A stretch of 51,582 bases of DNA, from positions 1-51,582 of the forward strand of contig JADLCR010000033.1 in NCBI GenBank assembly GCA_020847095.1. Reading direction: 5' to 3'. The DNA is from Oligoflexia bacterium. Lineage in GTDB: Bacteria > Bdellovibrionota > Bdellovibrionia > JABDDW01. Below, piece after piece: positions 3,083 through 30,965 of the stretch. The notes below the pieces were generated by a model that saw nothing but the letters and a program-made list of their open reading frames with translations, was not told the DNA's origin and searched no databases. Each line of letters begins with the position of its first letter. Position 1 is the stretch's first letter. The translations under genes and the position numbers were made by a program.

Positions 3083-3841
3083 ATGAAACTAACTTTTATG
3101 ACTTCGATATTTGCGTTACTTGCAAGCTTCCAGGCCTTTGGTGCTGACCCATCATTAGCTTATTGCCGAAATGCGGACTTTGAGGGACGACACCTCATGG
3201 GAGCTCCCTATCAAGCAGCCTGGGGAAATTCCCAAGCACGACTGGAAATAAGCCAGCAAAACGGCTGTGATCTTACTATTAGTGATAACTTTAATAAGGC
3301 GATTTGGAAATTTGATCTCTCCGGAGTGCGACCGGCCATTGTCCCTGAGAGTATCATTAGCGCCAATGGAGCCGGTGGAGCATTTGCGCAAAAAGCGCTC
3401 ACTTCTTTAAAAATCTACACTAAGCTTGCGGTGAGCGATTCGCAAAAGTCAATTAATGCAGCCCTGCCTGATAGGATTCAGATTGTTGCAACTATGGATT
3501 TACCTAAAGAAGGCCCAAATTTGTTTGAGTCAAAAGTGAAATTTACTAGTGAAATTTGGATCAATTACGGCCCTCAATCGAAACGTAGTTGGTCTAAATC
3601 TGATCCCGAAGGAAATTATCCCACCCCTCGATTACCAGCACCAATTCAGAATTTATACTTCACCAAACTTGAAAGTCGACTTGTCCGCGTAAACGATGCC
3701 AAACTTCCTGGAAAGTTTGGCGACGCCTTTAGCTTAGGTGTAAACTACGTCGCCGAAAAGCTGCTTGATGCCGCATTTTTACATCAAGTACGCTTTGCCC
3801 TTTCGTTGAGCCGAAGCGATAATCGAAAGCTCGCTGAATAA
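3083..3841 (+). CDS. Hypothetical secreted protein, 252 aa
   Basis: The start is well defined: AAAGGAG lies seven bases upstream of the ATG. Residues 1-20 form a classical signal peptide (MKL, hydrophobic core, cleavage near AFG-A), so the product is exported to the periplasm or beyond. The mature part has two cysteines (near residues 27 and 62) that could form a disulphide, and mixed beta-strand-like sequence. I recognise no family. The gene is monocistronic and is followed after about 40 bp by the left REP-like repeat of the RAYT locus. Confidence 0.7.
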   Translation: MKLTFMTSIFALLASFQAFGADPSLAYCRNADFEGRHLMGAPYQAAWGNSQARLEISQQNGCDLTISDNFNKAIWKFDLSGVRPAIVPESIISANGAGGAFAQKALTSLKIYTKLAVSDSQKSINAALPDRIQIVATMDLPKEGPNLFESKVKFTSEIWINYGPQSKRSWSKSDPEGNYPTPRLPAPIQNLYFTKLESRLVRVNDAKLPGKFGDAFSLGVNYVAEKLLDAAFLHQVRFALSLSRSDNRKLAE

Positions 3842-3932: not shown

Positions 3933-4583
3933 TTAACATAGCTCATGAGTAATTTTGTAGGCTTCATCTCTGCTTCGTTTAACATATATTTTGAACTCCC
4001 TCTTGGAAATGGCTAACTTTAGCTTTTCTTGGACTTCATTGTTAAATGGCCGATTCAACCAGGCTAAAAGCGCTGAAGGGTCGGGTGGAATGACGGATTG
4101 AAAATTCGGATGACCAGTAACTGTTATTGGCAAATGTGACCCGCCCAAAATCCCGCTGAGGGTGCTATATGGGTAATATTGAGCAAATTTTGATAATCCG
4201 GCTCTGACTGGATTCCTATACACATACTTCATGGTATTTGCGTAAGAATAGGCATCTTGAATAACTGTTCCCCGGTATTGTCCGCCGAACACATGGTTGA
4301 GTCGATTACACTCTCGGTTTATTGCCTGACTGGATTCCGTCATGAACCGATTCATAACTTGACCTAGATTTGCCGTGGGGGTCGACAAAATCAAATGAAA
4401 GTGATTTGGCATCAATGTAAAAGCATGAATCCGTATATTAAAGCAAATTTGCATGAGGTGGAGAAAATCACAGAAGATTTCCCAGCATACTCGTGATTCT
4501 AGATAAAAAGCGTCTCGATTATTACTTCTCGCGTAAACGTGGTAAGGAAAAATATTCGTTTTAAGCAGCTTCTGGCGAGGCAT
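3933..4583 (-). CDS. RAYT: REP-associated tyrosine transposase (Y1/HUH family)
   Basis: A 216-aa single-domain HUH nuclease of the Transposase_17/Y1 type. The diagnostic motif MPNHFHLIL contains the His-hydrophobic-His metal site. It is followed by the GQVMNRF helix, FGGQYRG, and the tyrosine-bearing helix MKYVYRNPVRAGL. The family nicks single-stranded REP hairpins and is normally single copy and domesticated rather than an active insertion sequence. The reading frame looks intact and the length is normal for the family. The gene lies between two inverted REP-like palindromes (3884-3917 and 4683-4711), which strongly supports the assignment. It has no operon partner. Confidence 0.9.
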   Translation of the reverse strand: MPRQKLLKTNIFPYHVYARSNNRDAFYLESRVCWEIFCDFLHLMQICFNIRIHAFTLMPNHFHLILSTPTANLGQVMNRFMTESSQAINRECNRLNHVFGGQYRGTVIQDAYSYANTMKYVYRNPVRAGLSKFAQYYPYSTLSGILGGSHLPITVTGHPNFQSVIPPDPSALLAWLNRPFNNEVQEKLKLAISKREFKIYVKRSRDEAYKITHELC

Positions 4584-17991: not shown

Positions 17992-18150
17992 TTAAATTTC
18001 AAAAGCTCGCCAAAGAATTGTGGCACATCTAAAGCGAACAAATGGCTTGAGTTCGCCGTTGCACATCTTATTGGCGGCATTAAGTGATTCGGCATTAGCA
18101 ATCGGATATGTTCTTGTCCAAAACATCAAACGAACTAACAAACGATACAT
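17992..18150 (-). CDS. Small hypothetical protein, 52 aa
   Basis: AAAGGAGG seven bases before the ATG is the strongest ribosome site in this part of the window. It is followed by an open frame of 52 codons. The product begins MYRLLVRLMFWTRTYP, a basic amphipathic stretch, and has a short cysteine-containing C-terminal half (MCNGELKPFVRFRC). No family is recognised. The sequence around it is otherwise gene-free for over a kilobase, next to repeats and a tRNA-like fragment. It could therefore belong to mobile DNA or be a leftover of a larger gene. Confidence 0.5.
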   Translation of the reverse strand: MYRLLVRLMFWTRTYPIANAESLNAANKMCNGELKPFVRFRCATILWRAFEI

Positions 18151-18229
18151 AAATAGCCTCCTTTATGGTTGAAAGAAGAGGCTCTAAGAAACCCGAATAG
18201 AACCACGAGTGAAAAACGACAAAAAATCA

Positions 18230-18260
18230 AAGTAGCAAAAAAAGTAGCAAGAAGTAGCAA
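18230..18260. repeat. Three direct repeats AAGTAGCAA
   Basis: Copies at 18230-18238, 18242-18250 and 18252-18260 (spacing 12 and 10 bp) lie in A-rich DNA, 125 bp left of the 63-bp repeat. Short, roughly one-helical-turn direct repeats beside a tRNA-derived sequence resemble arm-type binding sites of tyrosine integrases or iterons. Confidence 0.5.
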
Positions 18261-18385
18261 AGCTATGAAATTTCGCGAAGCTTTGCAAAATAATCAGGCA
18301 GATGGTGCCAAACTCTTTTCAGTGTTTTCAATAAGTTAGAAAGATTCAAAAAATTTAGAAAACCGCTATCGCAATAAAAGAAAAG

Positions 18386-18448
18386 TGGGGCGACCGACGG
18401 GGTCGGCCACTGCGCTCTTCGCCTCCAAGCTCATCGCTGCGTAGCCTC
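18386..18448. repeat. 63-bp perfect direct repeat, copy 1 (tRNA-His tail)
   Basis: This sequence is identical over 63 bp to 30576-30638. Its first 17 bases (TGGGGCGACCGACGGGG) are identical and in the same orientation as the last 17 nt, including CCA, of the tRNA-His gene (30889-30905). It continues into a longer palindrome-rich element that copy 2 lacks. Confidence 0.85.
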
Positions 18449-18460
18449 TCCTCGCTCGCT

Positions 18461-18515
18461 CAATCAGGCGTCGTGCCTGATTGCCCGTGTCAAACGCTCC
18501 CAAGCGTCGCGTTTG
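18461..18515. repeat. Palindrome-rich continuation of the tRNA-tail element
   Basis: CAATCAGGC (18461-18469) and GCCTGATTG (18475-18483) form a perfect 9-bp stem with a 5-nt loop. CAAACGC (18491-18497) pairs with GCGTTTG (18509-18515), and inside it ACGCT pairs with AGCGT (18494-18507). The arrangement suggests a structured intergenic repeat family rather than coding DNA. Confidence 0.55.
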
Positions 18516-18552
18516 CCGCGGTCGCTTGCTCGTTTCGATCCCCGCGGTAACT

Positions 18553-18590
18553 CACAAAAAACAAAAAAGCCCATCACTTCGTGATGAGCT
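18553..18590 (-). terminator. Rho-independent terminator, minus strand
   Basis: Read on the minus strand, GCTCATCAC-GAA-GTGATGGGC is a 9-bp stem (one G:T pair) followed by TTTTTTGTTTTTTG. It lies immediately downstream of the tRNA-like 3' fragment at 18601-18626, as expected for a terminator of a former tRNA transcript on that strand. Confidence 0.8.
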
Positions 18591-18600
18591 TCTTTGTTAT

Positions 18601-18626
18601 TGGGGCGTCGGACGGAACTTGAACCC
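18601..18626 (-). other. tRNA-like 3' fragment (T arm, acceptor strand, C73, CCA)
   Basis: On the minus strand this reads as a T loop (TTCAAGT), T-stem 3' strand (TCCGT), acceptor 3' strand (CCGACGC), discriminator C73 and CCA. C73 is characteristic of tRNA-His. The T-stem 5' strand no longer pairs properly and no D or anticodon arm follows, so it is a fragment. It differs from the intact tRNA-His at several paired positions and thus comes from another tRNA copy. Such 3' ends are typical remnants of integration sites. Confidence 0.6.
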
Positions 18627-18777
18627 CTGAAATCATGTGAAATATGATGAAAGTCGTTGAATACTCCTGAAAGCTGGGTTTTGTTATACTTTTAAGAGAA
18701 CTCTGTAAGAAAATATCGATTTATTTAAGTGATTGATAATCCGAGATATTTTGTTTTTTCCTTACGCATACGCAAAA

Positions 18778-20043
18778 TTATAGCCAAAAGAAAATAGCGG
18801 CGATCAGCGTGGGACCTAGGGCCCATTTAAACAGTTCAATTGGATTTATGCCCTCTTCCCCAAAAGAGGAGTTTAGAATCCCATATCCTGCTGGATTGGG
18901 TGCGTTTGCGATCACCGTAAGCCCACCACCAACAACGCTTCCAGCAACAAGAGCATATTTGGAGACATCAGGAAGATGAGGAACCTGTGAACCTAGGTAT
19001 GTGAGAGCGGCGTTGTCCGTAATGGCTGTTAACCCTATAGCTCCAAGATAAAGAGGCAAAACATCAAGCTTTGACAAAAGAGGTTCAAGCCACCATCGCT
19101 GTGGCCCTCCAAGCACAACAAGCCCCCCTAGAAAGAAACCCACCAGAAGCCCTTCTTTTATTTTTATATCTTCTTGGTATTCCTTGGTCACTGTCGTCAG
19201 TCCCAAAAAGAACAAAAAGATCCCTGCAAAGACGGTCATGTGATGGGAATTGACGACAATTAGAGCCAAAAACAGTAAATGCACGACACTAATCCAAACA
19301 GGGATAGGCTTAACATTTGATTGATTTGAATTTTCCCATGTTAGAAAAAGCAGCTCTTTGCGAAATAAAAATACCGTAATTATTGTTGCTGCAAGAATGG
19401 CCAGCAATGCCCGCCAACCGAAGTTTTGCATCATAAAAGCCAGATCCCAATTCCATTTTCCTGCCACCATAACAACAGGTGGCGCTGCGTAAGGAGTGAG
19501 AGTTCCACCGATAGACACATTGACGAACAAAAGACCGAGGGTGCCGTACATCATCCGTGATGACATGCGCCTTTTATAAAAACGATTTAAAATGATGAGA
19601 GCTGTTACGGTCATCGCGGCCGGTTCAGTGATGAAACTTCCTAACAGAGGACCTAATACAAGTGTCGAAGCATAAAATGCCAAAGGTCTTGGTAAGGGCA
19701 ATAGCTTTGAGACATTCTCGATGAGCTGCTCAGCTATCACCAGAATGGGTTTGCATGAACACACCGTCATGATCACAAAAACAAATGCGGGCTCTGTAAA
19801 ATGCCTGCTTTCTAGGTAGTGAATAGCTTCTTCTGAGCCATGTCCAGTGGCAATAAACAATAGGTAGAGGCCAGCCCACAATCCAAACACGACCTCTACT
19901 TCCCCTACGAGATGAAAAAGGTTCTCTCCCACTGAACCCTCAGGGTATTTGTTCGCCATATGTTGGAACTGCTTCACAGAAAATGTGTGGAGTATGGCTA
20001 GGGCGAAAAATACTGTAGCTGCAATTTCTTGTGTTAAAGTCAA
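18778..20043 (-). CDS. Putative Na+/H+ antiporter (PF07399 type)
   Basis: A 421-aa polytopic inner-membrane protein with about ten hydrophobic segments. The signature stretches GSFITEPAAMTVTALI, SIGGTLTPYAAPPVVMVAG and the C-terminal ITDNAALTYLGSQVP, followed by VANAPNPAG-like sequence (VIANAPNPAGYGIL), fit the predicted Na+/H+ antiporter family within the ion-transporter superfamily. Acidic and Asn/Pro residues in two inverted halves would form the ion site. The upstream gene on the same strand, 10 bp away, encodes a LysR regulator resembling NhaR, which controls sodium antiporters. The two form an operon, and regulation by Na+ is a reasonable inference. Confidence 0.8.
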   Translation of the reverse strand: MTLTQEIAATVFFALAILHTFSVKQFQHMANKYPEGSVGENLFHLVGEVEVVFGLWAGLYLLFIATGHGSEEAIHYLESRHFTEPAFVFVIMTVCSCKPILVIAEQLIENVSKLLPLPRPLAFYASTLVLGPLLGSFITEPAAMTVTALIILNRFYKRRMSSRMMYGTLGLLFVNVSIGGTLTPYAAPPVVMVAGKWNWDLAFMMQNFGWRALLAILAATIITVFLFRKELLFLTWENSNQSNVKPIPVWISVVHLLFLALIVVNSHHMTVFAGIFLFFLGLTTVTKEYQEDIKIKEGLLVGFFLGGLVVLGGPQRWWLEPLLSKLDVLPLYLGAIGLTAITDNAALTYLGSQVPHLPDVSKYALVAGSVVGGGLTVIANAPNPAGYGILNSSFGEEGINPIELFKWALGPTLIAAIFFWL

Positions 20044-20053
20044 TGTTTGGTCC

Positions 20054-20995
20054 TTAAGTTTCAGTCAATTTTTTGAAGGCGTCTTCAAAAACCGCCTGCA
20101 TTTCAGGAAAAATAGGATCCGAAAGATTTTTTTTGCTGATTAAAAGCCAGAGACTTTCTTTCCAAAACCCATGTGGTAGACCCGCAATTTTAACTTTTCC
20201 CTCTTTCAACTCATTTTCGATATAAGGGAATGGCAAAAAGCTTGCACCTATCCCGTCTGTCACAGCGCGAATGAGCACTGCCAAGATGTCAGCCTCAAAA
20301 ACGATGTTGGCGCTTATTTTTTCTTTTATTAGAAAATCATCTATCTCTTTGCGAAGATTCAATTTACTTGAAGGGAGGGCCAACCCAATTTCATGATTTG
20401 TCAACGCTTCGATACAGCCTTTTGCAGTCACCGGAGTTTTATTTCCTCTGTACGAACGCGGTACAGCAAGCACGACTGGCATTTCTGCCCGAGCCAGGGG
20501 AAAAACATACTCATCTTCAGTAGCCTCATTGGAAAGAACCAAATCCAAAGCGCCTTCACTGAGTTGAGTTATGAGTCCCCGATGGTTTGTCGAAACCACA
20601 CTGAATCTTTTGGCATCAACTGGAATCTTGTCATGAAATATTGAACTGATAAATGGCACACAAAATGGTCGTTCGATCTCTTCTGACAATCCTATGCGCA
20701 AAGATAACTTTGATTCATTCGTTGATGGAGTCAGTTCACTGAGCATGACCTCACAGGTCTCAAAAATCTGTTTTGTAAAATAAAATAAATGGGTCCCTTT
20801 TTCAGTGAGGTCCAAGTTCCGGGTGGAACGATCAAAAAGCGTGAGATCCAATTCATTTTCTAACTGTTTGAGCTGTGCACTAAGCGCAGGCTGACTGATC
20901 AGCAATTCTTTTGCTGCCGTCACAACATTTTTCTTACGGACAAAAGTATGGAAATAAAAAAGACGGTTTAAATTGAGGTTACGCATATAACCCAT
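20054..20995 (-). CDS. LysR-family regulator, NhaR-like
   Basis: A 313-aa LysR transcription regulator. The N-terminal winged helix (about 5-65) contains NLNRLFYFHTFVRKKNVVTAAKELL in segments, then SQPALSAQLKQLENELDLTLF, with the FYFH and VVTAA features of the NhaR branch. The C-terminal effector domain runs from about 95 to 300. It lies directly upstream of the antiporter gene and is separated by about 60 bp from the divergent TPR/LysM operon, so it could regulate both sides. Start is MGYM at 20995; the ATG at 20986 is equally possible and no ribosome site decides. Confidence 0.85.
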   Translation of the reverse strand: MGYMRNLNLNRLFYFHTFVRKKNVVTAAKELLISQPALSAQLKQLENELDLTLFDRSTRNLDLTEKGTHLFYFTKQIFETCEVMLSELTPSTNESKLSLRIGLSEEIERPFCVPFISSIFHDKIPVDAKRFSVVSTNHRGLITQLSEGALDLVLSNEATEDEYVFPLARAEMPVVLAVPRSYRGNKTPVTAKGCIEALTNHEIGLALPSSKLNLRKEIDDFLIKEKISANIVFEADILAVLIRAVTDGIGASFLPFPYIENELKEGKVKIAGLPHGFWKESLWLLISKKNLSDPIFPEMQAVFEDAFKKLTET

Positions 20996-21057
20996 TCTTA
21001 TATGTCCGGTCAGAAATATCTATTTTATTTTTTTAATACGAGGCCGAAAAATGAATT

Positions 21058-22395
21058 ATGAAAAGTATAAAAAAGGTTTTGATATTATGTTCTCTACTTT
21101 TGTCATTTCATGCTTATGCATTAGATGATTCAAAAAAGCTAGACCTAGCTGAAAGTCTAATTGAAAGTTACGACTGTCCAGAGGCTGTAAGAGTTTTAAG
21201 TGATCTTCTCATTGATACTTCAGTCAACGACAAAGCCGTCACTCTAACCTTGAATTGTCTCTTTAAAATGAAGAAGTTTGACAAAGCGATCACTATCGCC
21301 CGCAACTTTCTTGTGACACATCCATTTCATCTTGAATCTCGTGTTGGAATTATTAAATCACTTCTCTCATTAAATCAAAAGGATACTGCCCTTGAAGAAG
21401 CTGAAATACTTTTTAAAATGCATGGCCAAAATGCAAATGCAGTTACTTTATACACCGGTCTTTTAGCCGATAAAGATTTGATTCAAGCTATAAAAACTTT
21501 AGATGAATATCATGCTAAAAATAAGGATACGGGTGTCACACGACTACTATTAGCTGAATTATATATTAAAGAAAGGCAATTTACTTCTGCCCTTGATGAA
21601 CTGAAGCGCGCTCAAAGCATTGGCCCACTATCTGAGAAGATCTACGTTCGACTTTCAGAAGCTTATTTAGGTCTTTCTCAATTTGATAAAGCCCTAGAAA
21701 ACATAAAATTTGCAACAAAACTAGCGCCAGAGGTACCTGAGTCGTACATCGAATGGAGCAGGATCTATTTTTCCATGGGGAAAATGGATGCGGCAAAAGA
21801 TATTTTATCCTCAGCCTTAGACCAAGTTTCTAATAGAGGGCGTAGCAAAATCTTAGTGCAATTGGCACGTTTTCAGTTGCAGCAAGGGTTATATCAATTA
21901 GCTCGTGAAACTTTATCCAGTGCCAAAAAAATTTCTCCTCATCAAAATATAATTCCGTATCTCACAATAAGAAGTTATTTGCTAGAGAACGATTTTGCCT
22001 CAGCTTCAAAAAATCTTGAAATTTATATAAAGGAGCACCCATCTCATAATTGGGCCATTCTTGCACGAGCACGAATTTTAAAAACGACCTCTAGTGAGGA
22101 TGTAGTTGCTGCGTGGGTTAGTGACTTCTTAAGTACCTCTGAAAACCCCAATGAATTGAAAGATTTTATATCAAAAGATCAAGAAGAATCAACTGTGCGC
22201 CTTCCCGCAAGTTCGCCAAATTTCGAAAGAGTAAAAGTGGGCGATACTCTTTACGGAATCTCTAGAAGGGTCTTTGGACGAACTCGATATTGGAAATCAA
22301 TATATGAATGGAATCGTAATGTTCTATCAGACCCAAATATCTTGCGGGAAGGCACGTGGTTGAAGATCTGTAGGGATGAAAAATGCTTAAACTGA
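21058..22395 (+). CDS. Exported TPR protein with C-terminal LysM-like domain
   Basis: The 445-aa product has a signal peptide (residues 1-21, cleavage near AYA-L). About nine helical TPR-like repeats follow (about 25-340), for example QFTSALDELKRAQSIGP and QFDKALENIKFATKLAP. The C-terminal domain (about 391-440) has VKVGDTLYGISRRVFG and WLKI, the LysM/FimV-type peptidoglycan-binding pattern. It probably sits in the periplasm on the cell wall and organises partner proteins. It overlaps the next gene by 13 bp and opens a four-gene operon with two barrel-like proteins and a lipoprotein. Confidence 0.8.
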   Translation: MKSIKKVLILCSLLLSFHAYALDDSKKLDLAESLIESYDCPEAVRVLSDLLIDTSVNDKAVTLTLNCLFKMKKFDKAITIARNFLVTHPFHLESRVGIIKSLLSLNQKDTALEEAEILFKMHGQNANAVTLYTGLLADKDLIQAIKTLDEYHAKNKDTGVTRLLLAELYIKERQFTSALDELKRAQSIGPLSEKIYVRLSEAYLGLSQFDKALENIKFATKLAPEVPESYIEWSRIYFSMGKMDAAKDILSSALDQVSNRGRSKILVQLARFQLQQGLYQLARETLSSAKKISPHQNIIPYLTIRSYLLENDFASASKNLEIYIKEHPSHNWAILARARILKTTSSEDVVAAWVSDFLSTSENPNELKDFISKDQEESTVRLPASSPNFERVKVGDTLYGISRRVFGRTRYWKSIYEWNRNVLSDPNILREGTWLKICRDEKCLN

Positions 22396-23192
22396 TCTTG
22401 GTACTTATCCTCTACATTTTACTTGTTTCATTTAGCGTAAGAGCAAATCCGACAGATGAGATCCTAGGACCTGAGCCTACTCCACAAGCCGAGCAATTTT
22501 ATGACCGATCCATGGAGAACCAAATCGGCATCAGGCTCGCTGCTTTGGGTGGTATTGGAGCAACATCCTACACACTTACCAGTCAAGGCTATAATGTATC
22601 TCTACCGCTAACGATAAGCTACTTATGGGGTTTTTCTGGTCAATACCAGTTCCCCAAAAGTCATTTTTCAATCGCCCTCGATTACTCATCTCAGAGGACA
22701 AGCTTTGAAAACGTAAGTTCTGTATTGCCAAGCAACATTAACCTTACATCAAACTTTTATTCCGGCTACGTGCAACTCAACCTCTCACCCGAATGGGCAG
22801 TTGGGGTTGGGTATGGATATGGAGACCGGCTAGCAACACGCACATCACCTCAAGACGTTATCAGTTCTGCAGTTTTCAGAGGCCCCATGATGATGGCTGA
22901 ATATTCACATCTTTCAACGCCTCGAGATACATTTGGAGCGCGTTTTTACGCCTTTTTCCCTAACTATTATGAAGAAACATCCACGAGCTCAGGTTATTCG
23001 AATTTTTCATACAGAATGCAATTACGCCCTTATTATCGAAGACAAATTAAGCAAGATGTATTCGCGGGCGCAGGAGTTTGGATTGAATATAACTACAGCG
23101 CATTTAGCGGTACAGGGACACGACTTACAACTGATGCACGTGAATCACTATGGAAAATCTATGCACCTGTTTTCTTGGAGTTTAGCTTCTGA
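22383..23192 (+). CDS. Predicted outer-membrane beta-barrel protein, 269 aa
   Basis: Signal peptide at residues 1-21 (cleavage near VRA-N). The mature protein consists of alternating amphipathic strands rich in Tyr, Ser and Gly (for example SYLWGFSGQYQF, GYVQLNLSPEWAVGVGYGYG) and ends in a C-terminal Phe (LEFSF), the classical outer-membrane insertion signal. The size suggests 8-12 strands. It begins inside the TPR/LysM gene and its stop overlaps the following gene by 1 bp. The TPR/LysM protein may anchor or assemble it. No family is recognised. Confidence 0.75.
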   Translation: MLKLILVLILYILLVSFSVRANPTDEILGPEPTPQAEQFYDRSMENQIGIRLAALGGIGATSYTLTSQGYNVSLPLTISYLWGFSGQYQFPKSHFSIALDYSSQRTSFENVSSVLPSNINLTSNFYSGYVQLNLSPEWAVGVGYGYGDRLATRTSPQDVISSAVFRGPMMMAEYSHLSTPRDTFGARFYAFFPNYYEETSTSSGYSNFSYRMQLRPYYRRQIKQDVFAGAGVWIEYNYSAFSGTGTRLTTDARESLWKIYAPVFLEFSF

Positions 23193-23785
23193 TGAAGATA
23201 TCTATTTTTGCGATAGCACTAATAATCTTCATGTTAAGCAAAGAAGCTTTGGCCGACAGTTTTAATATTGGCATAGGGGGTACATACACTCAAATATCAC
23301 TGCCAAGTTCAACATCATCCGATATTTCAACATATAGAGGTCCCGGATATATTCTAGATGCAAGACTTAAAATAGTCCCTGTATCTCTTCGAAAAATATT
23401 TAGTTTCGATTTATTTTTGGATCTTGGCCAAGGTTTCACTAAAAATATTGGCGCAAGCGATTCGCAACAGCAAGACTACACTATAGGTGGAATAGATATT
23501 TATTATAATAGTATATTCATCGGTGCTCAATATGGCAGGGCTCACTCTTCTGTTCGCGCGAGCAGTGGAACATACTCAAATTTTAATTATGATGTCATTG
23601 GTCCGAGAGTGGGTGTCAAGATTTTTGGCGGTGATAATTTTGGGATGACACTGGCTGGTATTTATCAAACTGGTACCGCAGCCCCAGCTGCGGACAATAA
23701 CCTAACGATGTCGCAAAAAGTAAATCAATTTAGCGCAATACTCATGTTTAATTTTAAACTTATTGGAGACCGATCCACTCGATAG
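23192..23785 (+). CDS. Predicted outer-membrane beta-barrel protein, 197 aa
   Basis: Signal peptide at residues 1-21 (cleavage near ALA-D). The mature sequence has alternating strands with glycine turns (FNIGIGGTYTQISL, YNSIFIGAQYGRAHSSV) and a final barrel-like strand (FSAILMFNFKL). This is a small barrel of perhaps 8 strands. It starts at the last base of the upstream barrel gene, so the two are translationally coupled. The similar layout suggests related or partner barrels, though I do not see clear sequence repetition between them. Confidence 0.7.
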   Translation: MKISIFAIALIIFMLSKEALADSFNIGIGGTYTQISLPSSTSSDISTYRGPGYILDARLKIVPVSLRKIFSFDLFLDLGQGFTKNIGASDSQQQDYTIGGIDIYYNSIFIGAQYGRAHSSVRASSGTYSNFNYDVIGPRVGVKIFGGDNFGMTLAGIYQTGTAAPAADNNLTMSQKVNQFSAILMFNFKLIGDRSTR

Positions 23786-23793
23786 GAGCTCAT

Positions 23794-24285
23794 ATGAATT
23801 CTTACTTTAAATATACAATTTGTATTTTGATTAGTTTAATTATGACCGCATGTGGTAACCCATCGGTCGAGTATAATCCAGAAGGCTCAACATCTTCTGA
23901 TATTCCAGAGACAGTTCTCACTTTATTCTCTGATGCCGCAGGTGTGACAATGACAAATGCAGCTGCTGCGGGCACAGAACTAACCGGGAATATCTCAAGA
24001 GCTTATATAGATCTTTCATCCTATACGATGATCCGAGGTCAATTCTCTTCCTCATTAGCTTCTGCCACCATAAATTGTCGAATTGAATATTCAACTAATA
24101 ATGGAGGATCATGGTCCACGCTCGTACCAAATTTTGCGGCAGCCGCTGTGGCAAATGCCCACAATAATTCAGCTTGGGTAGAAATACCTGACGCAGCGAA
24201 AACAGGGGTCCTTCTAAGAGCACTCACTGTCGGCGATGGTGTTTTGGACCCAATAATCAAATATGTACGCATAGGATTCTATTAA
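23794..24285 (+). CDS. Predicted lipoprotein, 163 aa
   Basis: A lipoprotein signal peptide with lipobox IMTAC (Cys20) is followed by Gly-Asn, so outer-membrane sorting is plausible. The mature part is a beta-sandwich-like domain rich in Ser, Thr and Ala (RAYIDLSSYTMIRGQFSSS, IEYSTNNGGSW), resembling carbohydrate-binding or galactose-binding-like folds, without diagnostic residues. AGGAG lies six bases before the ATG. It is the last gene of the TPR/LysM-barrel operon and converges with the GH15 gene 25 bp away. Confidence 0.75.
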   Translation: MNSYFKYTICILISLIMTACGNPSVEYNPEGSTSSDIPETVLTLFSDAAGVTMTNAAAAGTELTGNISRAYIDLSSYTMIRGQFSSSLASATINCRIEYSTNNGGSWSTLVPNFAAAAVANAHNNSAWVEIPDAAKTGVLLRALTVGDGVLDPIIKYVRIGFY

Positions 24286-24310
24286 CAAAAATTATGGAAA
24301 TAAGTTATTA

Positions 24311-26089
24311 TCACAAGACATCGATCCATGGCGGGCTTATGGCAAATGCCGCATTGATTTGCCCAACGTGCGAATAGGCCTGAGGAAAGTTCCCCAACTG
24401 TTGGCGATCAGATGGCATAAAATGCTCTGAATAAAGACCAAGATGATTCGCCGTTTGCATAGCTCTTGTCATTATTGATTTCGCTTCATTGTTTTTTCCG
24501 ATTCGCGCTAAAGCCTGGGCTATCCAAAATGAGCAAACGACAAAGGCCGCTTGAGGCGTTCCAAAATCGTCTTTTCTTGTATAGCGGTAAAACAAACTCC
24601 CCTCGGAGCCTTCCACGGCTAAAACTTTGCCAATTTGTTCCAAAGTCGCTCTTGTGACAGCTTCATTCGGGTATCTGAGAACAGAAAACAACGAGAGAGC
24701 GGCATCAAAACTTTCATCTTGGGGCCCATTTCTGACGGATCCATCACGAATGGCTTTTTCGATGGTGTGTTCAGCTCGCGATTTTTCAACTTCAATATCA
24801 ATTGATAACCCCTTGAGGTATCCCTGTTTTTGAATACGCTGTAATCTTTCAAGCCCTGCCCAAGACATTAAATTTGTGAAGGTGTGTTCTTGCCAGCCAT
24901 TGCGGATTTCCCAAAGGCCCGCATCGGGTTGCCCAATTGTTTTTACGGCCAACTTTGCCAAATGCTCCAAAAGCTCCTCGTGCTCTTTAGTGCGTAAGTG
25001 GACAAAGCGATGATCAAAAAATATTGGCGCCAAGGTCAAGATCATCTCACCATAGACATCATTTTGGACATGTTCAGCCGCTTGGTTGTTGCTACGTATT
25101 GGGGCATGGTTTTTATACCCAGTCCAATTTGAGTGAATGGTCTCAGGAAGTGGAAGCTCTCTGCTTAACGTGTAGACAGGCGCTAAACGCTCCTTTGAGG
25201 TTTCGTTATGGTGGGCGATATCAAGGAGAAATTTAAGAAAGCCCTCCATCTCTTCAAAGTGCCCAAGATTGTGGAAGGCCGACAATACAAAATAGGCATC
25301 TCTGAGCCAGCAGTAGCGATAGTCCCAATTACGCCCACCTCCAGGTTCTTCGGGAAGACTCGTCGTCAATGCCGCAAGAATCGCTCCAGTGTCTTCGAAA
25401 CAGTGAAGCTTGAGCGTAAGGGCTGAGCGAATTGTTTCTTGCTGAAAAAGGCTTGGTATAGAGCAGTGCTTGACCCAGGTCTTCCAATAGTGCTCGGTTT
25501 GAGAAAGAAATCTCTCACAGAGTTGAGCCAGATCTTCTTCAACCGCAGAATTCCAGCTCAGGCAAAAGTAGAGCTTGTCTTTGAGCAAGAATGGAGTCTG
25601 GTCCGTCAAGTACGTCAGAGGCATATTAGTGGTGAGACGTAAGGACTCATTTCTGATTTCAAAACTCACATGGCTATTGCCTTTTGATGGCTTAACAACT
25701 TGTTTGTTCCAACCATTAATTGGTTCGCATACAACCTTTATGGAAGGGCTACCCGAGACCGGTTCGATAATCCGAACTAAGCTCAATGGTCTGAACATCC
25801 GGCCATGTTGTTCAAAGCGTGGGCAAAAATCGATAATTTGAAAGGCATTGCCGTTTTTGTCCTCAAGCTGGGTACAAAGAATATTCGTATTCTCCAGATA
25901 GCTTTGACGCCATTGACCATGCGCATCATCGGCATGTTGGATGGAAAATTCCCCGCCATTTTGGTCAAGTATCTTCCCAAAAACAGGCTCACTGTCAGGA
26001 CGCGGAAGGCAGAGCCAATCAAGGGATCCGCGCTCACTGATCAACGCCGAAATGTTGCAGTTTCCAATCAACCCGTGGTTGTACATCAT
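24311..26089 (-). CDS. Glycoside hydrolase family 15 protein (glucoamylase/trehalase-like)
   Basis: A 592-aa cytoplasmic GH15 enzyme: N-terminal beta-sandwich (about 1-210) starting HGLIGNCNISALIS, and a C-terminal (alpha/alpha)6 barrel. Visible landmarks are NWDYRYCWLRDA near residue 258, the general-acid segment GLWEIRNG near 391, and the late DDFGTPQAAFVVCSFW segment. No signal peptide. GH15 enzymes release glucose from alpha-glucosides; several bacterial members are trehalases. Its position divergent from otsA-otsB, with about 40 bp between starts, supports a role in trehalose turnover. Maltooligosaccharide hydrolysis is the main alternative. Confidence 0.85.
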   Translation of the reverse strand: MMYNHGLIGNCNISALISERGSLDWLCLPRPDSEPVFGKILDQNGGEFSIQHADDAHGQWRQSYLENTNILCTQLEDKNGNAFQIIDFCPRFEQHGRMFRPLSLVRIIEPVSGSPSIKVVCEPINGWNKQVVKPSKGNSHVSFEIRNESLRLTTNMPLTYLTDQTPFLLKDKLYFCLSWNSAVEEDLAQLCERFLSQTEHYWKTWVKHCSIPSLFQQETIRSALTLKLHCFEDTGAILAALTTSLPEEPGGGRNWDYRYCWLRDAYFVLSAFHNLGHFEEMEGFLKFLLDIAHHNETSKERLAPVYTLSRELPLPETIHSNWTGYKNHAPIRSNNQAAEHVQNDVYGEMILTLAPIFFDHRFVHLRTKEHEELLEHLAKLAVKTIGQPDAGLWEIRNGWQEHTFTNLMSWAGLERLQRIQKQGYLKGLSIDIEVEKSRAEHTIEKAIRDGSVRNGPQDESFDAALSLFSVLRYPNEAVTRATLEQIGKVLAVEGSEGSLFYRYTRKDDFGTPQAAFVVCSFWIAQALARIGKNNEAKSIMTRAMQTANHLGLYSEHFMPSDRQQLGNFPQAYSHVGQINAAFAISPPWIDVL

Positions 26090-26131
26090 TTTAAAGTTTA
26101 TTTTAGTTTTATATCAAAGTAAAATGTGTTC

Positions 26132-28375
26132 ATGCGATTATCACTGAAGTTCATACTTCCGCTGGTCCTAGTGCTGGCGCTGATCACTTATGCGCTCATG
26201 CCCCTCGTGGACCAGCTCACCTTGAAATGGTTTGTGCGCGACCTGGATATACGCTCAAAACTCATCACCGATACCATGCAGCTTCCACTCGCCGAGTTGA
26301 TTCAGTCAGACTCGCGGGCCAAGGTCTCAAATTTCTTCAATCGCGTGATCCGCGACGAACGACTTTATGCGCTTGGTTTCTGTGTTCAGGCTAATGAGCT
26401 GAAATTTAAAACCCAAACCTTTCCCATAGATTTCAATTGTACCTCGGAGGTCAAGGGAGAAAATCAGAGTGTCGTTATCAAATTGTCCAAGGGTTCCCTT
26501 CACTTTGCCAAACATGCCATAGATTCCGAAGGCAAGGTCATCGGGCAATTGATCCTTGTTCATGACATGAGTTTCATCGAAAGACGCAGTTCTGATACCA
26601 AGAAATATATTTTCTATCTGTTTATCGGACTGGGCATTGTCATCTCCTTGATGACAGTGGTTATCGCCCAATTGAGCTGGCGCGGTTGGGTAGCGGGCAT
26701 GAGGGCCCTTCTAAAAGGTGAAGGTTTGGTTAAACCCCTTTCTCAGATGAATCGCCCAGAGCTATTGCCCTTGGCGAAAGATTTGCGAGCCTTAGTGAGG
26801 GATCTTGAATCTGATCGCCGAGCGAAGGATGAGAGCCCAATCTCCTGGACGCCTAAAACCTTAAAAGCAGTATTGCATGATGAGTTGGCTGGCGATGAGA
26901 TCCTCATCGTTTCAAATCGTGAGCCTTACATTCATAATTGGAAGGGCGAAAAAATCGAGGTGCAGGTTCCCGCAAGCGGACTCGTGACAGCTTTGGAACC
27001 GATCATGAGAGCCTGTTCAGGAACATGGATTGCTCACGGGAGTGGGTCCGCTGATCGGGATGTCGTCGATAAACAAGACCATGTTCGAGTTCCACTTGAG
27101 CACCCTTCTTACCAGATCCGTCGGGTTTGGCTTACTAAAGAAGAAGAGAATGGATACTACTATGGATTTGCCAATGAAGGAATTTGGCCTCTTTGCCATA
27201 TAGCACATACAAGACCAACGTTTCGTACTCAAGATTGGAAGCACTATTCAGAAGTAAATAAAAAATTCGCTAAAGTCGTCGTTGAAGAGGCAAAAACAGA
27301 AGACCCAGTCATCCTCCTTCAAGACTACCATTTCGCCCTTTTGCCAAAACTTATCCGTGAAGAGTTACCCCACGCGACGATCATCACATTTTGGCACATA
27401 CCATGGCCCAATCCAGAAGCTTTCGGGATTTGTCCATGGAGGGAAGAGATTCTGGCGGGATTATTGGGTAGTAGCGTTGTCGGGTTTCACACGCGATTTC
27501 ATTGCAACAACTTCATCGATACCGTTGATCGCTTTTTAGAGGCACGGATAGACAAGGAAACCTCGACTATTTCCTATGGTGGTAAACTCACATCCGTCAA
27601 AAACTATCCGATTTCTATTGAATGGCCATCTCGATGGCTCAAAAAACAGAAACCTGTCAACGAATGCCGTGCCGAAATAAGAACAATCAATAACATGCCC
27701 AAAGACATTTTACTTGGGATCGGCGTTGATCGGCTTGATTACACTAAAGGAATTTTAGAAAGATTCATGGCTGTGGAGCGACTGCTTGAGTTATACCCAG
27801 AATGGATCGGCAAATTTACTTTTGTACAAATCGCTGCTCCCACGCGAACCAGCATTGATCAATATCAAAATTTTGAATCTCAAGTACGTGCCATGGCGAG
27901 AAAGATCAATGACCGATTTGGCAGGCCTGGGTATGAGCCCATTTGCCTTAAAGTTGAACACCATGAACCTGACATGATTTACGAATACTACCGGGGTGCA
28001 GACGCTTGCATGGTGACAAGTCTTCATGACGGAATGAATCTGGTGGCAAAAGAGTTTGTCGCTGCCCGCGAAGACAATCAAGGCGTGCTCATTTTAAGTC
28101 AATTTACTGGAGCCGCTCGTGAACTTCCTGAAGCTCTTGTCATCAACCCTTATAATATCGACCAATGTGCCAATGCTTTGAATATTGCGTTGACGATGCC
28201 TATGACTGAGCAGCGCGACAGGATGCGAAGCATGCGGGGTCTTATACAAGAGTTTAACGTCTATCGCTGGGCGGGAAGGATGTTGATGGATGCCTCCAGA
28301 ATCAGGCAGCGCCGTAGGCTCATGGGACGCATTCAAGAAACGGAAAACTCATTGCAAGAGGGGCCGTCGTTATGA
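26132..28375 (+). CDS. otsA: Membrane-anchored HAMP-domain trehalose-6-phosphate synthase
   Basis: About 747 residues joining a sensor-like membrane module to a GT20 enzyme that makes trehalose-6-phosphate from UDP-glucose (or another NDP-glucose) and glucose-6-phosphate. TM1 lies at about 5-25, a periplasmic domain of about 130 residues follows, then TM2 (about 159-181) and a HAMP-like linker (to about 235). The GT20 domain starts at SNREPYIHNW (about 260) and has TFWHIPWPNP, GVDRLDYTKG (about 531) and SLHDGMNLVAKEF (about 629). Plain OtsA is about 470 aa and soluble. The fused form is known in proteobacteria, from memory. ATG 26132 is preferred to GTG 26126. It overlaps otsB by 4 bp. Confidence 0.9.
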   Translation: MRLSLKFILPLVLVLALITYALMPLVDQLTLKWFVRDLDIRSKLITDTMQLPLAELIQSDSRAKVSNFFNRVIRDERLYALGFCVQANELKFKTQTFPIDFNCTSEVKGENQSVVIKLSKGSLHFAKHAIDSEGKVIGQLILVHDMSFIERRSSDTKKYIFYLFIGLGIVISLMTVVIAQLSWRGWVAGMRALLKGEGLVKPLSQMNRPELLPLAKDLRALVRDLESDRRAKDESPISWTPKTLKAVLHDELAGDEILIVSNREPYIHNWKGEKIEVQVPASGLVTALEPIMRACSGTWIAHGSGSADRDVVDKQDHVRVPLEHPSYQIRRVWLTKEEENGYYYGFANEGIWPLCHIAHTRPTFRTQDWKHYSEVNKKFAKVVVEEAKTEDPVILLQDYHFALLPKLIREELPHATIITFWHIPWPNPEAFGICPWREEILAGLLGSSVVGFHTRFHCNNFIDTVDRFLEARIDKETSTISYGGKLTSVKNYPISIEWPSRWLKKQKPVNECRAEIRTINNMPKDILLGIGVDRLDYTKGILERFMAVERLLELYPEWIGKFTFVQIAAPTRTSIDQYQNFESQVRAMARKINDRFGRPGYEPICLKVEHHEPDMIYEYYRGADACMVTSLHDGMNLVAKEFVAAREDNQGVLILSQFTGAARELPEALVINPYNIDQCANALNIALTMPMTEQRDRMRSMRGLIQEFNVYRWAGRMLMDASRIRQRRRLMGRIQETENSLQEGPSL

Positions 28376-29142
28376 AGCATCTTTTCACGTCGACAGGCCT
28401 GAGAGTCATGGAATCTCTGACTTTTACACAAACGCTTTACGCATTCGATTTCGACGGCACTTTATCCCCCATCGCCGAAACCCCAGATGCCGCCCGGATA
28501 TCGACTAAGACAAATGATCTTGTGCAGGCCCTCTCAGCCCACGCCCCAGTTGCCGTCGTCTCAGGGCGTTCCATTGCTGACCTGAAAAAGAGATTGCTGT
28601 ATTCTCCTCAGCATCTCATAGGGAATCATGGGCTAGAGGGCCTTTCTTCAAAAATAGAATCTACAACGCAGGCGCAATCCGTATGTGAAGCTTGGAAAAA
28701 GCAGCTCGGCAAAGGATGGAACCAAAAGTTTGACTCAGGCGTCTTCATTGAAGACAAAAGCTTCTCACTGGCTCTCCATTACAGACGCTCAAGAAATAAG
28801 AAAGCTGCCAAATTGGGACTTTTTGAAAAAATCGAAAAACTCGATCCACCGCCGCGAGTCATCCTTGGCAAGTCCGTGATGAACCTTCTCCCTGCTGGGG
28901 CTCCCCATAAAGGAGTGGCCTTGCTTGAGTTGATGATGAGCTTGAATCTTAAATGCGCATTTTACGTGGGTGACGACGACACTGACGAAGACGTGTTTGC
29001 ACTTCCCGACCCGAGGATCATTACCGTGCGTGTCGGAAAGAAGAAGACTTCTCACGCGCAGTATTTTGTGAATAGGCAAAATGAAGTGAATCAAATACTC
29101 AAGCAAATAGTAAAGATGATTCAGAAATGCCAGGGCAAATGA
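28372..29142 (+). CDS. otsB: Trehalose-6-phosphate phosphatase
   Basis: A 256-aa HAD-superfamily phosphatase of the OtsB type. Motif I DFDGTLSP gives the nucleophile Asp26 and general acid Asp28. VVSGRSIADL is motif II, the cap follows, and GDDDTDED near residues 200-207 is motif IV, binding Mg2+. It dephosphorylates trehalose-6-phosphate to trehalose. The start overlaps the otsA stop (ATGA), giving coupled synthesis of the two pathway enzymes. The stop overlaps the MarR gene by 16 bp. Confidence 0.92.
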   Translation: MKHLFTSTGLRVMESLTFTQTLYAFDFDGTLSPIAETPDAARISTKTNDLVQALSAHAPVAVVSGRSIADLKKRLLYSPQHLIGNHGLEGLSSKIESTTQAQSVCEAWKKQLGKGWNQKFDSGVFIEDKSFSLALHYRRSRNKKAAKLGLFEKIEKLDPPPRVILGKSVMNLLPAGAPHKGVALLELMMSLNLKCAFYVGDDDTDEDVFALPDPRIITVRVGKKKTSHAQYFVNRQNEVNQILKQIVKMIQKCQGK

Positions 29143-29573
29143 GCATGGAAAAAGACGAGAACAACTTTCAAGAAGCAGTAGGCAGACTCGTACTGATGAG
29201 CCTCACTATTCATAACCTCAATAAAGTAGCAGAAAGTAAACTTGGGCTGAGTCTCGTGCAATATCATTTGCTTCGCATTCTGCGAGACATGCCGGGAAGT
29301 TCGCCTCAGCGTTTGGCTTTTGCGGTAGGAATGCATCCAAGCACCTTAACTCAAAGCATGAAACGTCTTGTCCGGAAAGATTTGATCTTTGTTGAGGAGG
29401 ACCCAAAAGATTCTAGAAAGAAGATTCTTGGTTTGACTACTCGTGGCTCTACAGCGCTTCAACGCTTCGAAGGTGGGATCAACTCATTATTGAAACAAGG
29501 GGTTGAGCAAAAGCAAATTTTATCAAGATTGGAACCGATATGGTCTTTGCCGAAAATATTAACGGAGTTGTAA
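29127..29573 (+). CDS. MarR-family transcriptional regulator
   Basis: A 148-aa winged-helix regulator. The fold is recognisable from LSLVQYHLLRILRDMPGSSPQRLAFAVG in segments (helices 2-3), the recognition helix HPSTLTQSMKRLVRKDLI, and the wing EEDPKDSRKKILGLTTRG with the MarR-typical D-x-R. The ATG at 29127 overlaps otsB by 16 bp; the ATG at 29139 (MEKDEN after MS) is an alternative. Its place as third gene of the trehalose operon suggests autoregulation and control by stress or a small ligand. The operator was not identified. Confidence 0.85.
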   Translation: MPGQMSMEKDENNFQEAVGRLVLMSLTIHNLNKVAESKLGLSLVQYHLLRILRDMPGSSPQRLAFAVGMHPSTLTQSMKRLVRKDLIFVEEDPKDSRKKILGLTTRGSTALQRFEGGINSLLKQGVEQKQILSRLEPIWSLPKILTEL

Positions 29574-30103
29574 CCCATCTTGGGAGCAAGATACCTGTGG
29601 AAATTCAAAAAGCAGATATGGACACACTGTTAAGAGAGATTAGAGATTTGTTTTTGAAAGAAAAAAATCAGGAACAGACGAAAAGCACAATGCTTGAGCT
29701 CTTAGGAAAAAAATTCATCTGTGACTGGGTAGTTTATTGGCAAGTCAATGAAAAGGCCAGAGCTTTGCGTTTTGAAGGTGTATGGATGACTCCTTCTTTC
29801 AAGGCCGATGAACTTGAAAGCGATGTGCGAAAAAGGATCATAACCCAAGGAGATGGGATGCCCGGAAGGGTATGGCGCCTCGGCCAGCCAATGAAGAGTC
29901 TTGATATCATCCGGGATATGATGCTTCCTCGGTCGCTGGACGCCAGTTCGTCAGGCATTAAAGAAGGGATATGGTTTCCAGTTTTCAAGAATGAGACAGT
30001 AAGCGGTATTATTGAAATGCTGAGATCCAAATCTGCTCCAAATGGTCCGCACCTTCTGGTCTTCTTAGAAGACCTTGGAAGGGAATTGGGTGAATATTTC
30101 TAA
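29540..30103 (+). CDS. GAF-domain protein
   Basis: A 187-aa protein with a GAF-like core (about 40-175): a helix (MDTLLREIRDLFLKE) leads into CDWVVYWQVNEKARALRFEGVW, then ITQGDGMPGRVWRLGQP, a hallmark of GAF sensors, and GIWFPVFKNETVSGIIEML. It has no output domain, so it probably acts by protein-protein contact, or senses a small molecule for the adjacent regulator. The start at 29540 overlaps the MarR gene by 34 bp. A shorter product from ATG 29618 is possible. Confidence 0.75.
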   Translation: MVFAENINGVVTHLGSKIPVEIQKADMDTLLREIRDLFLKEKNQEQTKSTMLELLGKKFICDWVVYWQVNEKARALRFEGVWMTPSFKADELESDVRKRIITQGDGMPGRVWRLGQPMKSLDIIRDMMLPRSLDASSSGIKEGIWFPVFKNETVSGIIEMLRSKSAPNGPHLLVFLEDLGRELGEYF

Positions 30104-30163
30104 GACACTACGATGGTATAACTTTCTGGGTTAAATAAAACGTCAAATGGCAAATTTCAAAAC

Positions 30164-30352
30164 TCAGTGAAATCGCTGGGCCTCTTCTTTAAAGATCGAA
30201 ATAGGTCTCCACTTCACTTTCACTATTGCTCGTGAGAGTCGCTCGAAGCGAGACAAACACTGCCTGGAATGACAATTTTCAAAGCTCGAAAGTGAGAGCC
30301 CAAGCTGCAGCAAAGCTGCTATTAGAATCAATTTTACGATCAGATTATCCAT
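30164..30352 (-). CDS. Small exported or membrane-anchored protein, 62 aa
   Basis: The ATG at 30352 is preceded by AGGGGG nine bases upstream. The product begins MDNLIVKLILIAALLQLGL, a good signal peptide or anchor, followed by a mature part with two cysteines (CHSRQC) and a basic tail (WRPISIFKEEAQRF). The composition and layout are those of a real small secreted protein. The frame stays open upstream of the ATG, but that part is not convincing. It lies alone between the trehalose operon and the repeats near tRNA-His. Confidence 0.5.
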   Translation of the reverse strand: MDNLIVKLILIAALLQLGLSLSSFENCHSRQCLSRFERLSRAIVKVKWRPISIFKEEAQRFH

Positions 30353-30424
30353 AGAAAGTGACCCCCTAAGTCGCTTTTTAAGGTTCCAAAAAACCAATAC
30401 CTTGCGGACCCAGGATCTTGAGCG

Positions 30425-30455
30425 TGTATAACACTTGTATAACAAATGTATAACA
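30425..30455. repeat. Three direct repeats TGTATAACA, 11-bp period
   Basis: Copies start at 30425, 30436 and 30447, exactly 11 bp apart, so they face the same side of the helix. They lie 121 bp left of the second 63-bp repeat, almost the same distance as the AAGTAGCAA triplet lies from the first copy. This is an iteron-like or integrase-arm-like arrangement. Confidence 0.55.
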
Positions 30456-30575
30456 CCCACGAAACTGAGTGAAATATCCCGAAATATTCCGGGTTGTGAT
30501 CTCGTCCCTCTCAAATTTAAGTTAGTTTGACGTTACAGGTACTTGGAAAATGCCTTCGTAAGGCCTTGAAAAATT

Positions 30576-30638
30576 TGGGGCGACCGACGGGGTCGGCCAC
30601 TGCGCTCTTCGCCTCCAAGCTCATCGCTGCGTAGCCTC
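30576..30638. repeat. 63-bp perfect direct repeat, copy 2
   Basis: Identical to 18386-18448, in direct orientation, 12.19 kb apart. The first 17 bases again equal the tRNA-His 3' end. After position 30638 the similarity to copy 1 stops at once. A stretch that follows (about 30669-30783) reads in one frame as a possible gene remnant (WAKALSQPARVTLATLL) without a start. Confidence 0.85.
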
Positions 30639-30845
30639 ATAAGTGGGACGGAAATTATATTTTCAAGATAGGTGGGCCAAGGCATTGTCCCAACCAGCAC
30701 GTGTTACCCTTGCAACTTTATTGGTTCGTGCAGATGGTGATGCTGGACTTGCTGGCGTTGCACGTGAGGTTTGTCGAAGAATATATTTCTCCTCTACGAC
30801 TTCACCCCACTATTTAATATAAGATGTTTGGGATTCTTGAGAACT

Positions 30846-30879
30846 GTATCCGGGATACCGTTAACCGTATCCTGGATAC
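30846..30879. promoter_or_regulatory. Tandem palindromes GTATCC-N-GGATAC
   Basis: GTATCCGGGATAC (30846-30858) and GTATCCTGGATAC (30867-30879) are two perfect 6+1+6 palindromes. Their centres are 21 bp apart, two helical turns. A GTTAAC sits between them. They lie ten bases beyond the tRNA-His 3' end. The layout is that of a dimer-pair operator or recombinase site; no T tract supports a terminator. Confidence 0.45.
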
Positions 30880-30888
30880 GGTATTATT

Positions 30889-30965
30889 TGGGGCGACCGA
30901 CGGGGATCGAACCCGCGACATGCAGAGCCACAATCTGCCGCTCTACCAACTGAGCTACGGCCGCC
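30889..30965 (-). tRNA. tRNA-His (anticodon GTG)
   Basis: The gene is 77 nt with a full cloverleaf: an encoded G(-1), acceptor GCGGCCG pairing with CGGTCGC (one G:T), D arm with AGCTCAGTTGGTAGAGC, anticodon stem GCAGA/TCTGC around loop TTGTGGC (anticodon GTG), T arm GCGGG-TTCGATC-CCCGT, C73 and encoded CCA. G(-1) with C73 is the histidine identity signature. Its 3' end points towards the 18.4-30.6 kb island, as at integration sites. Confidence 0.97.

Follow-up and report, generated by a model that had tools for sequence, protein, structure and literature searches.

Two identical 63-bp sequences bracket a 12-kb gene block in the window, that is, the whole stretch of 51,582 nucleotides analysed here from an Oligoflexia bacterium (contig JADLCR010000033.1). 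They are best explained as parts of two copies of a small structured unit that usually ends in a copy of the tail of the tRNA gene behind which it stands. The existence of a structured family of this kind, linked to tRNA genes, is hardly in doubt. Moderate confidence is placed in the scheme as a whole, according to which the units would be non-autonomous and would spread among tRNA loci, inserting at the T-loop and duplicating the tail, with the result that the tRNA stays intact, while the tail copy would act as a surrogate attachment site that draws incoming elements away from the tRNA. The array of tails at tRNA-His would have taken up a T3-type element at 18386 and, between ~18601 and 30575, an integrase-less, CIME-like trehalose/antiporter element. 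Both the spread of the units and the reason why their fold is retained are matters that we infer.

The 3' ends of tRNA genes are major docking sites of bacterial islands. The 12-kb block alone would be an ordinary island; a folded copy of a docking site, found beside tRNA genes across a phylum, would lead to a testable account of how elements are taken up while tRNA genes are spared.

The 63-bp repeats and the tRNA-His locus

The sequences at 18386-18448 and 30576-30638 are direct and identical over 63 bp, with extension on neither side, and the first 17 bases of both equal positions 30889-30905, the 3' end of tRNA-His, exactly as an earlier note on this DNA had described. This is the longest exact repeat in the window (14-16 bp in 10 mononucleotide shuffles) and it is far beyond chance. 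In the genome-wide count that the same note had proposed, there are two full copies, and bases 18-63 also have a 91% match behind tRNA-Met on contig C84.

The left copy forms the end of a complete structured unit of 166 nt (18386-18551, minus strand; 139.2 bits with covariance model R2), which has diverged relatives behind other tRNA genes; the tail copy occupies 18386-18402, and the 5' end of the unit pairs with the tail. The right copy (30576-30638, minus strand) is the 3' part of a truncated unit with its tail copy at 30576-30592, and model R2 matches there from 30576 to 30718 with 37.7 bits. Read along the minus strand, the locus begins with tRNA-His (gtg; 30964-30889), the last 17 nt of which (30889-30905) are the copied tail, followed by a trailer of ~250 nt, the truncated right copy with its tail copy at 30576, and the 12-kb block. 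Then come a diverged tail-like sequence (18627-18601), a terminator-like hairpin with a T run (18552-18600, minus strand, read directly from the sequence), the complete unit (18551-18386) with the third tail, and the leftward sequence. The diverged sequence at 18601-18627 (minus strand), whose 5' part is T-arm-like, is the proposed left, attR-like end of the block; it differs from the His tail at 6 of 21 positions, which is weak by sequence alone, as four unrelated places reach 7. Within the trailer, positions 30815-30888 contain repeated palindromes and are common to three tRNA loci of this genome (His, Glu and Ala-ggc), with 87% identity over 75 nt between His and Glu.

Two facts favour the notion that a 12-kb island integrated at the 3' end of tRNA-His with the 63-bp repeats for its attachment repeats, or else that recombination between these repeats moved the block: identical direct copies bound it, and OtsA, one of the enclosed genes, has a patchy occurrence, in 23 of 59 genomes, own included (the best match is 69% in another family, 56% in G002 of the same family, and none in G001). 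However, units that are homologous to the repeat stand behind other tRNAs in this and other genomes, the diverged tail and hairpin at 18552-18627 would fall inside such an island, and high identity is also found between neighbouring units of a single array (97.5% over 120 bp on contig C45). For the most part the repeats consist of a unit body, and structured units of this kind accompany many tRNA genes at which there is no such island; attachment repeats, the role given to them by the earlier note, are an unlikely explanation for them. They also serve as a warning that a tRNA-tail repeat by itself is no proof of an island.

A structured family behind tRNA genes

A query of 215 bases finds diverged copies of the unit on contigs C84, C14 and C88 of the same genome (behind tRNA-Met, tRNA-Leu-cag and tRNA-Gly, respectively) and two in tandem on C45. 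A copy of the gene's own tail (last 20 nt, up to 3 mismatches, within 700 nt downstream) follows 11 of the 38 tRNA genes found in this genome, compared with 0/44 tRNAs from six relatives and 0/42 more from G001 and G002, some of them with little downstream sequence; one of the six relatives, G029, carries units at other tRNAs. At least three types of body are shared between different tRNAs: type A with His, Met, Gly, Leu-cag, Leu-gag and a Val tail on C45; type B with Arg-tcg and Ser-gct; and type C with Arg-cct and Pro. Types B and C (loci L019, L047, L035, L037 and L040) are tail-capped and unlike type A, and some of them have a T-arm 5' strand before the body. The two Pro genes have two units each, in opposite order.

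By plain DNA comparison, the only one of 59 genomes to show the unit is its own, and phage and plasmid records show none; a type-A DNA pattern had 0 matches in genome_contigs and another pattern 0 in viral_contigs. The family is visible only through covariance models. Model R1, built from six type-A copies, finds it in 25/143 genomes of the class, own included. Model R2, built from 31 matches, extends it at E <= 0.001 to 95/368 genomes of the phylum (own included), 62/181 genera and 58/234 good-quality genomes, with no match in G001 or G002; seven candidates were scored per genome, so that copy numbers are lower bounds, and the E-values are rough. Even at E <= 1, R2 gave no match in 85 control loci, of which 69 are tRNA loci of relatives. 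Among the families of Rfam 15, only tRNA reached the gathering score in the window and 20 loci, and none matches the unit at that score. MRSC-65-2 was considered as a match and rejected, as the available part of its description (PMC11109978) gives it a single long stem, which does not fit.

The unit is a non-coding stretch of ~150 nt on the tRNA strand, usually located 150-300 nt behind the tRNA gene. Its last ~20 nt copy the tRNA from the T-loop to CCA, and its first nucleotides are complementary to the T-arm part of this tail, closing a branched fold. The alignment of 72 distinct copies was fitted to the model, a procedure biased towards the structure; in it 89.7% of 2802 cells are paired, 39 of 41 pairs show double changes (741 double-change cells), and covariation reaches 0.610 versus 0.056-0.085 for slid structures, with 0/500 shuffles as high. 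Helix 1, formed by the 5' strand of the unit and the tail, shows double changes in 6/6 pairs and has 91.1% of its cells paired. This covariation is what is relied upon for helix 1, given that ranking the 5' strands against all tails was mixed: the own tail came first or second for 5 of 12 units, 34th of 37 for Leu-cag and 27th of 36 for one Pro unit, and the p-value of this ranking takes no account of tails held in common. The same model-fitted alignment contains 87 G-U cells versus 31 A-C cells, an excess that, with the caution due to such an alignment, favours the tRNA strand as the one that folds. An RNA of that strand is the probable folded form, and a folded DNA strand is the less likely alternative.

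Positions relative to tRNA genes were compared for 73 matches in 63 sources, a non-random sample made up of the best-scoring loci plus extra ones from G136, G347 and genus g10. A same-strand tRNA lies within 300 nt upstream in 52 of the 64 copies outside the own genome and at 300-700 nt in 3 more; the other 9 have no tRNA in view, 3 of them with <130 nt to look in. The neighbouring tRNA's own tail ends 43 of the 64 copies, and the remaining 21 comprise the 9 just mentioned, 11 with a tRNA and no tail copy, and 1 behind another unit. For the matches in the own genome, 5/9 end in the tail of the near tRNA. Units were found with 25 kinds of tRNA. In 36 tRNA/tail pairs, chosen because the tail copy has <=2 mismatches, 31 of the copies start at T54+2 to +4, and 35 are located 153-299 nt behind the tRNA; the duplication extends to the flank past CCA in 15 of 35 scored pairs.

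The copy starts in the T-loop, a known crossover subsite according to the available part of PMC4383910, as would also be the case if the units were eroded attR ends of integrase elements and played no part themselves, and the integrases of the T3 and C45 elements discussed below do leave tail copies at their far ends. Neither a fold conserved across a phylum nor the near-constant spacing of 35/36 pairs is expected of decay, however, and an origin of the units as such remnants is considered improbable.

Regarding their spread, copies at different tRNAs of the same genome have a median likeness of 0.68 (115 pairs, four genomes), versus 0.57 for copies at the same tRNA in different genomes (96 pairs) and 0.55 for other pairs (2242); these pairs are not independent, and gene conversion would give the same picture. 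Nine of ten further loci of G136 adjoin a tRNA, each time of a different kind. Judged from these sequence comparisons, there is an even chance that the unit is mobile, spreading among the tRNA loci of a genome.

Another possibility is that the unit is a non-coding RNA useful to the host, for instance in tRNA maturation or level, which has been selected and multiplied by tandem duplication and gene conversion and is neither selfish nor a docking site. The strong covariation, the excess of G-U over A-C, the location on the same strand as the tRNA and the apparently inherited position at tRNA-Gln in genus g10 are all in agreement with such an RNA; on the other hand, the units are patchy (none in G001 and G002, and 5/20 at the tRNA-Gln locus of g10), they accompany different tRNAs in different genomes, and their tails are decayed in G009 and G012. 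A host RNA of this sort is regarded as rather doubtful.

Element ends at tRNA tails and at unit tails

The cargo of the 12-kb block (18778-30103) consists of genes for a Na+/H+ antiporter, a LysR protein, a TPR/LysM protein, three family-less proteins, a GH15/trehalase-like protein, OtsA, OtsB, a MarR protein and a GAF-like protein, the GAF match being weak. An integrase gene, reported earlier as missing from the block, is indeed absent from the proteins scanned there, and none of the five PF00589 places of the genome is on contig C33. The motif TGTTATAC occurs five times in the window, versus 0.76 expected (1/100 shuffles reached five): three copies, 11 bp apart, lie just inside the right end (30426-30455, minus strand), one is inverted just inside the left end (18682-18689, plus strand), so that both sets point inwards, and one is elsewhere. 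A second motif, ATATTTCACNNNNTTTC, is close to both ends of the block and absent from the rest of the window. This layout resembles the arm layout of T3 elements. The TGTTATAC triple was also considered as a marker of an integrase family and dropped: it occurs in 19 stretches of genome_contigs and 3 of viral_contigs, and many of these belong to unrelated organisms and are longer tandem repeats.

Comparison of tRNA-His loci among relatives, which had been suggested earlier, agrees with an inserted block: G002 keeps the TamA/TamB/EF-P order up to tRNA-His, and the 7.6 kb that follow lack the block genes. No block-free allele was found among the sequences compared. The neighbourhoods of nine relatives contain OtsA together with OtsB in 9/9 and GH15 as well in 8/9, with a tRNA called in one of the nine stretches. 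The GC content of the block (0.432, versus 0.429 in its left and 0.456 in its right surroundings) counts against a foreign origin, and the T-loop of tRNA-His is not the same in sequence as that of the diverged tail at 18601, which is against a simple attL/attR pair. All things considered, the prospects are slightly better than even that the block is an integrase-less, CIME-like integrative element in the tail array of tRNA-His, and its left end is likelier to lie near 18601 than at 18448. The earlier proposal of an element at a tRNA 3' end thus retains the tRNA-tail geometry and the absence of an integrase, gains the end motifs, and loses the 63-bp repeats as its attachment repeats.

To the left of the complete unit, running left from 18385, lies a T3 module (18122-18355, minus strand), the end of another family of integrative elements. 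It is 84% identical to the sequence behind tRNA-Val on contig C96 and contains GCTACTT three times at 18230-18258. The T3 end is located directly behind the tRNA in the case of tRNA-Val and tRNA-Asp, and behind the unit tail at 18386 in the window, and the distance from the first GCTACTT to the end of the tail is 128 bp (Val), 127 bp (Asp) and 128 bp (window). The element at tRNA-Asp has an integrase and then a 14-nt copy of the Asp tail. A ribosome-site-like stretch with a short reading frame, which starts with MYRLLVRLM, is shared by two sequences at the inner edge of the T3 module (L089, ~3615-3665; window, ~18149-18100, minus strand). On contig C45 (L057, 2677-4242), an excisionase-like HTH_17 gene is accompanied by the gene of a tyrosine integrase with an arm domain. 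The tail behind this integrase is His-like, with 2/17 mismatches to the own tRNA-His tail, and over 14 nt it equals the tail of tRNA-His in G001. C45 is not claimed as the source of the integrase of the T3-type element in the window; 20 contig ends (C33, C96, C45 and others) share no overlap.

A second case is provided by genus g10, which may be Bdellovibrio and in which a unit stands directly behind tRNA-Gln in 5/20 genomes (G009, G012, G014, G015 and G050), R2 having no match at the other 15 tRNA-Gln loci (L268-L282). All carriers seen have their unit at tRNA-Gln, a position that looks inherited. In G038 and G063 the gene of a large serine recombinase, whose domains were seen in the G063 copy, runs into the tRNA-Gln tail itself; the trailer and unit come ~14 kb later in G038, and in G063 a fragment of them comes ~98 kb later, beside a gene resembling the C-terminal part of the recombinase. 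Loci L277, L280, L288 and L289 (G063 and G038) show this C-terminal-like part at a great distance downstream, as though the serine recombinase gene were split on integration. In the available part of PMC4383910 (2014), tyrosine recombinases were the only ones known at tRNA genes. In G014, an 84-bp remnant of the end of the serine-recombinase gene (88% to G038) abuts the tail copy of the unit.

In these comparisons the ends of related elements adjoin the tRNA tail at some loci and the tail copy of a unit at others. Tail copies can thus probably act as surrogate attachment sites. The alternative is that the unit arrived later between tRNA and element; as the unit is present at tRNA-Gln in several species of g10, this is less likely there.

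Comparison with known systems

The islands collected by Islander have an intact tRNA gene and a displaced 3' fragment in the same orientation, and the block is similar in its exact 17-nt tails at 30576 and 18386. As stated in the available part of PMC4383910, Islander rejects candidates that are <2 kb or lack an integrase; the 12-kb block differs in having no integrase, and the units, gene-free and of 150-300 bp, fall under the 2-kb filter and hence are removed there. With the CIME (cis-mobilizable element) of PMC5704250, in the part of that paper available, the block shares the lack of an integrase, motifs at both ends and a location beside another integrative element; it differs in that its tails are carried by structured units and that attL and attR are here only candidates, with a weak left tail.

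The searched literature did not contain tail-capped, tRNA-linked units; subscription papers were mostly outside its reach, and an earlier description is possible. With a likelihood somewhat short of even, the units would represent a new class, structured, non-coding and mobile, for which tRNA genes serve as addresses: such a unit would insert behind a tRNA at the T-loop, take on the tail of that tRNA and a 5' strand to match, pass from one tRNA to the next, and offer a spare attachment site that shields the tRNAs.

REP and REPIN sequences, which are associated with RAYT transposases, are likewise short, folded, multi-copy and non-coding, and a Y1_Tnp (IS200/RAYT-like) transposase gene is present in the window (3933-4583, minus strand), with a second one on C64. 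The units differ in that their position is tied to tRNA genes and their tails are copied from them; blastn with 12 unit bodies had no match near 3933-4583 or in L201, that is, near either Y1_Tnp gene. The attC site of integrons is a folded site whose two ends pair, as do the ends of the unit, and the order of units is modular, as at the two Pro loci; what is different is that the pairing end of the unit is a tRNA tail.

The system nearest to the unit family is that of the rtT repeats of the E. coli tyrT locus (RtT in Rfam), where repeat units, each with a copy of the tRNA 3' end, reportedly stand behind a tRNA gene at one locus. The RtT model had no match at the Rfam gathering score in the window and 20 loci. 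Here, too, a repeat unit with the tRNA 3' end is located behind its tRNA, but the units occur with many tRNAs and in many genomes, and they have a covarying fold in common.
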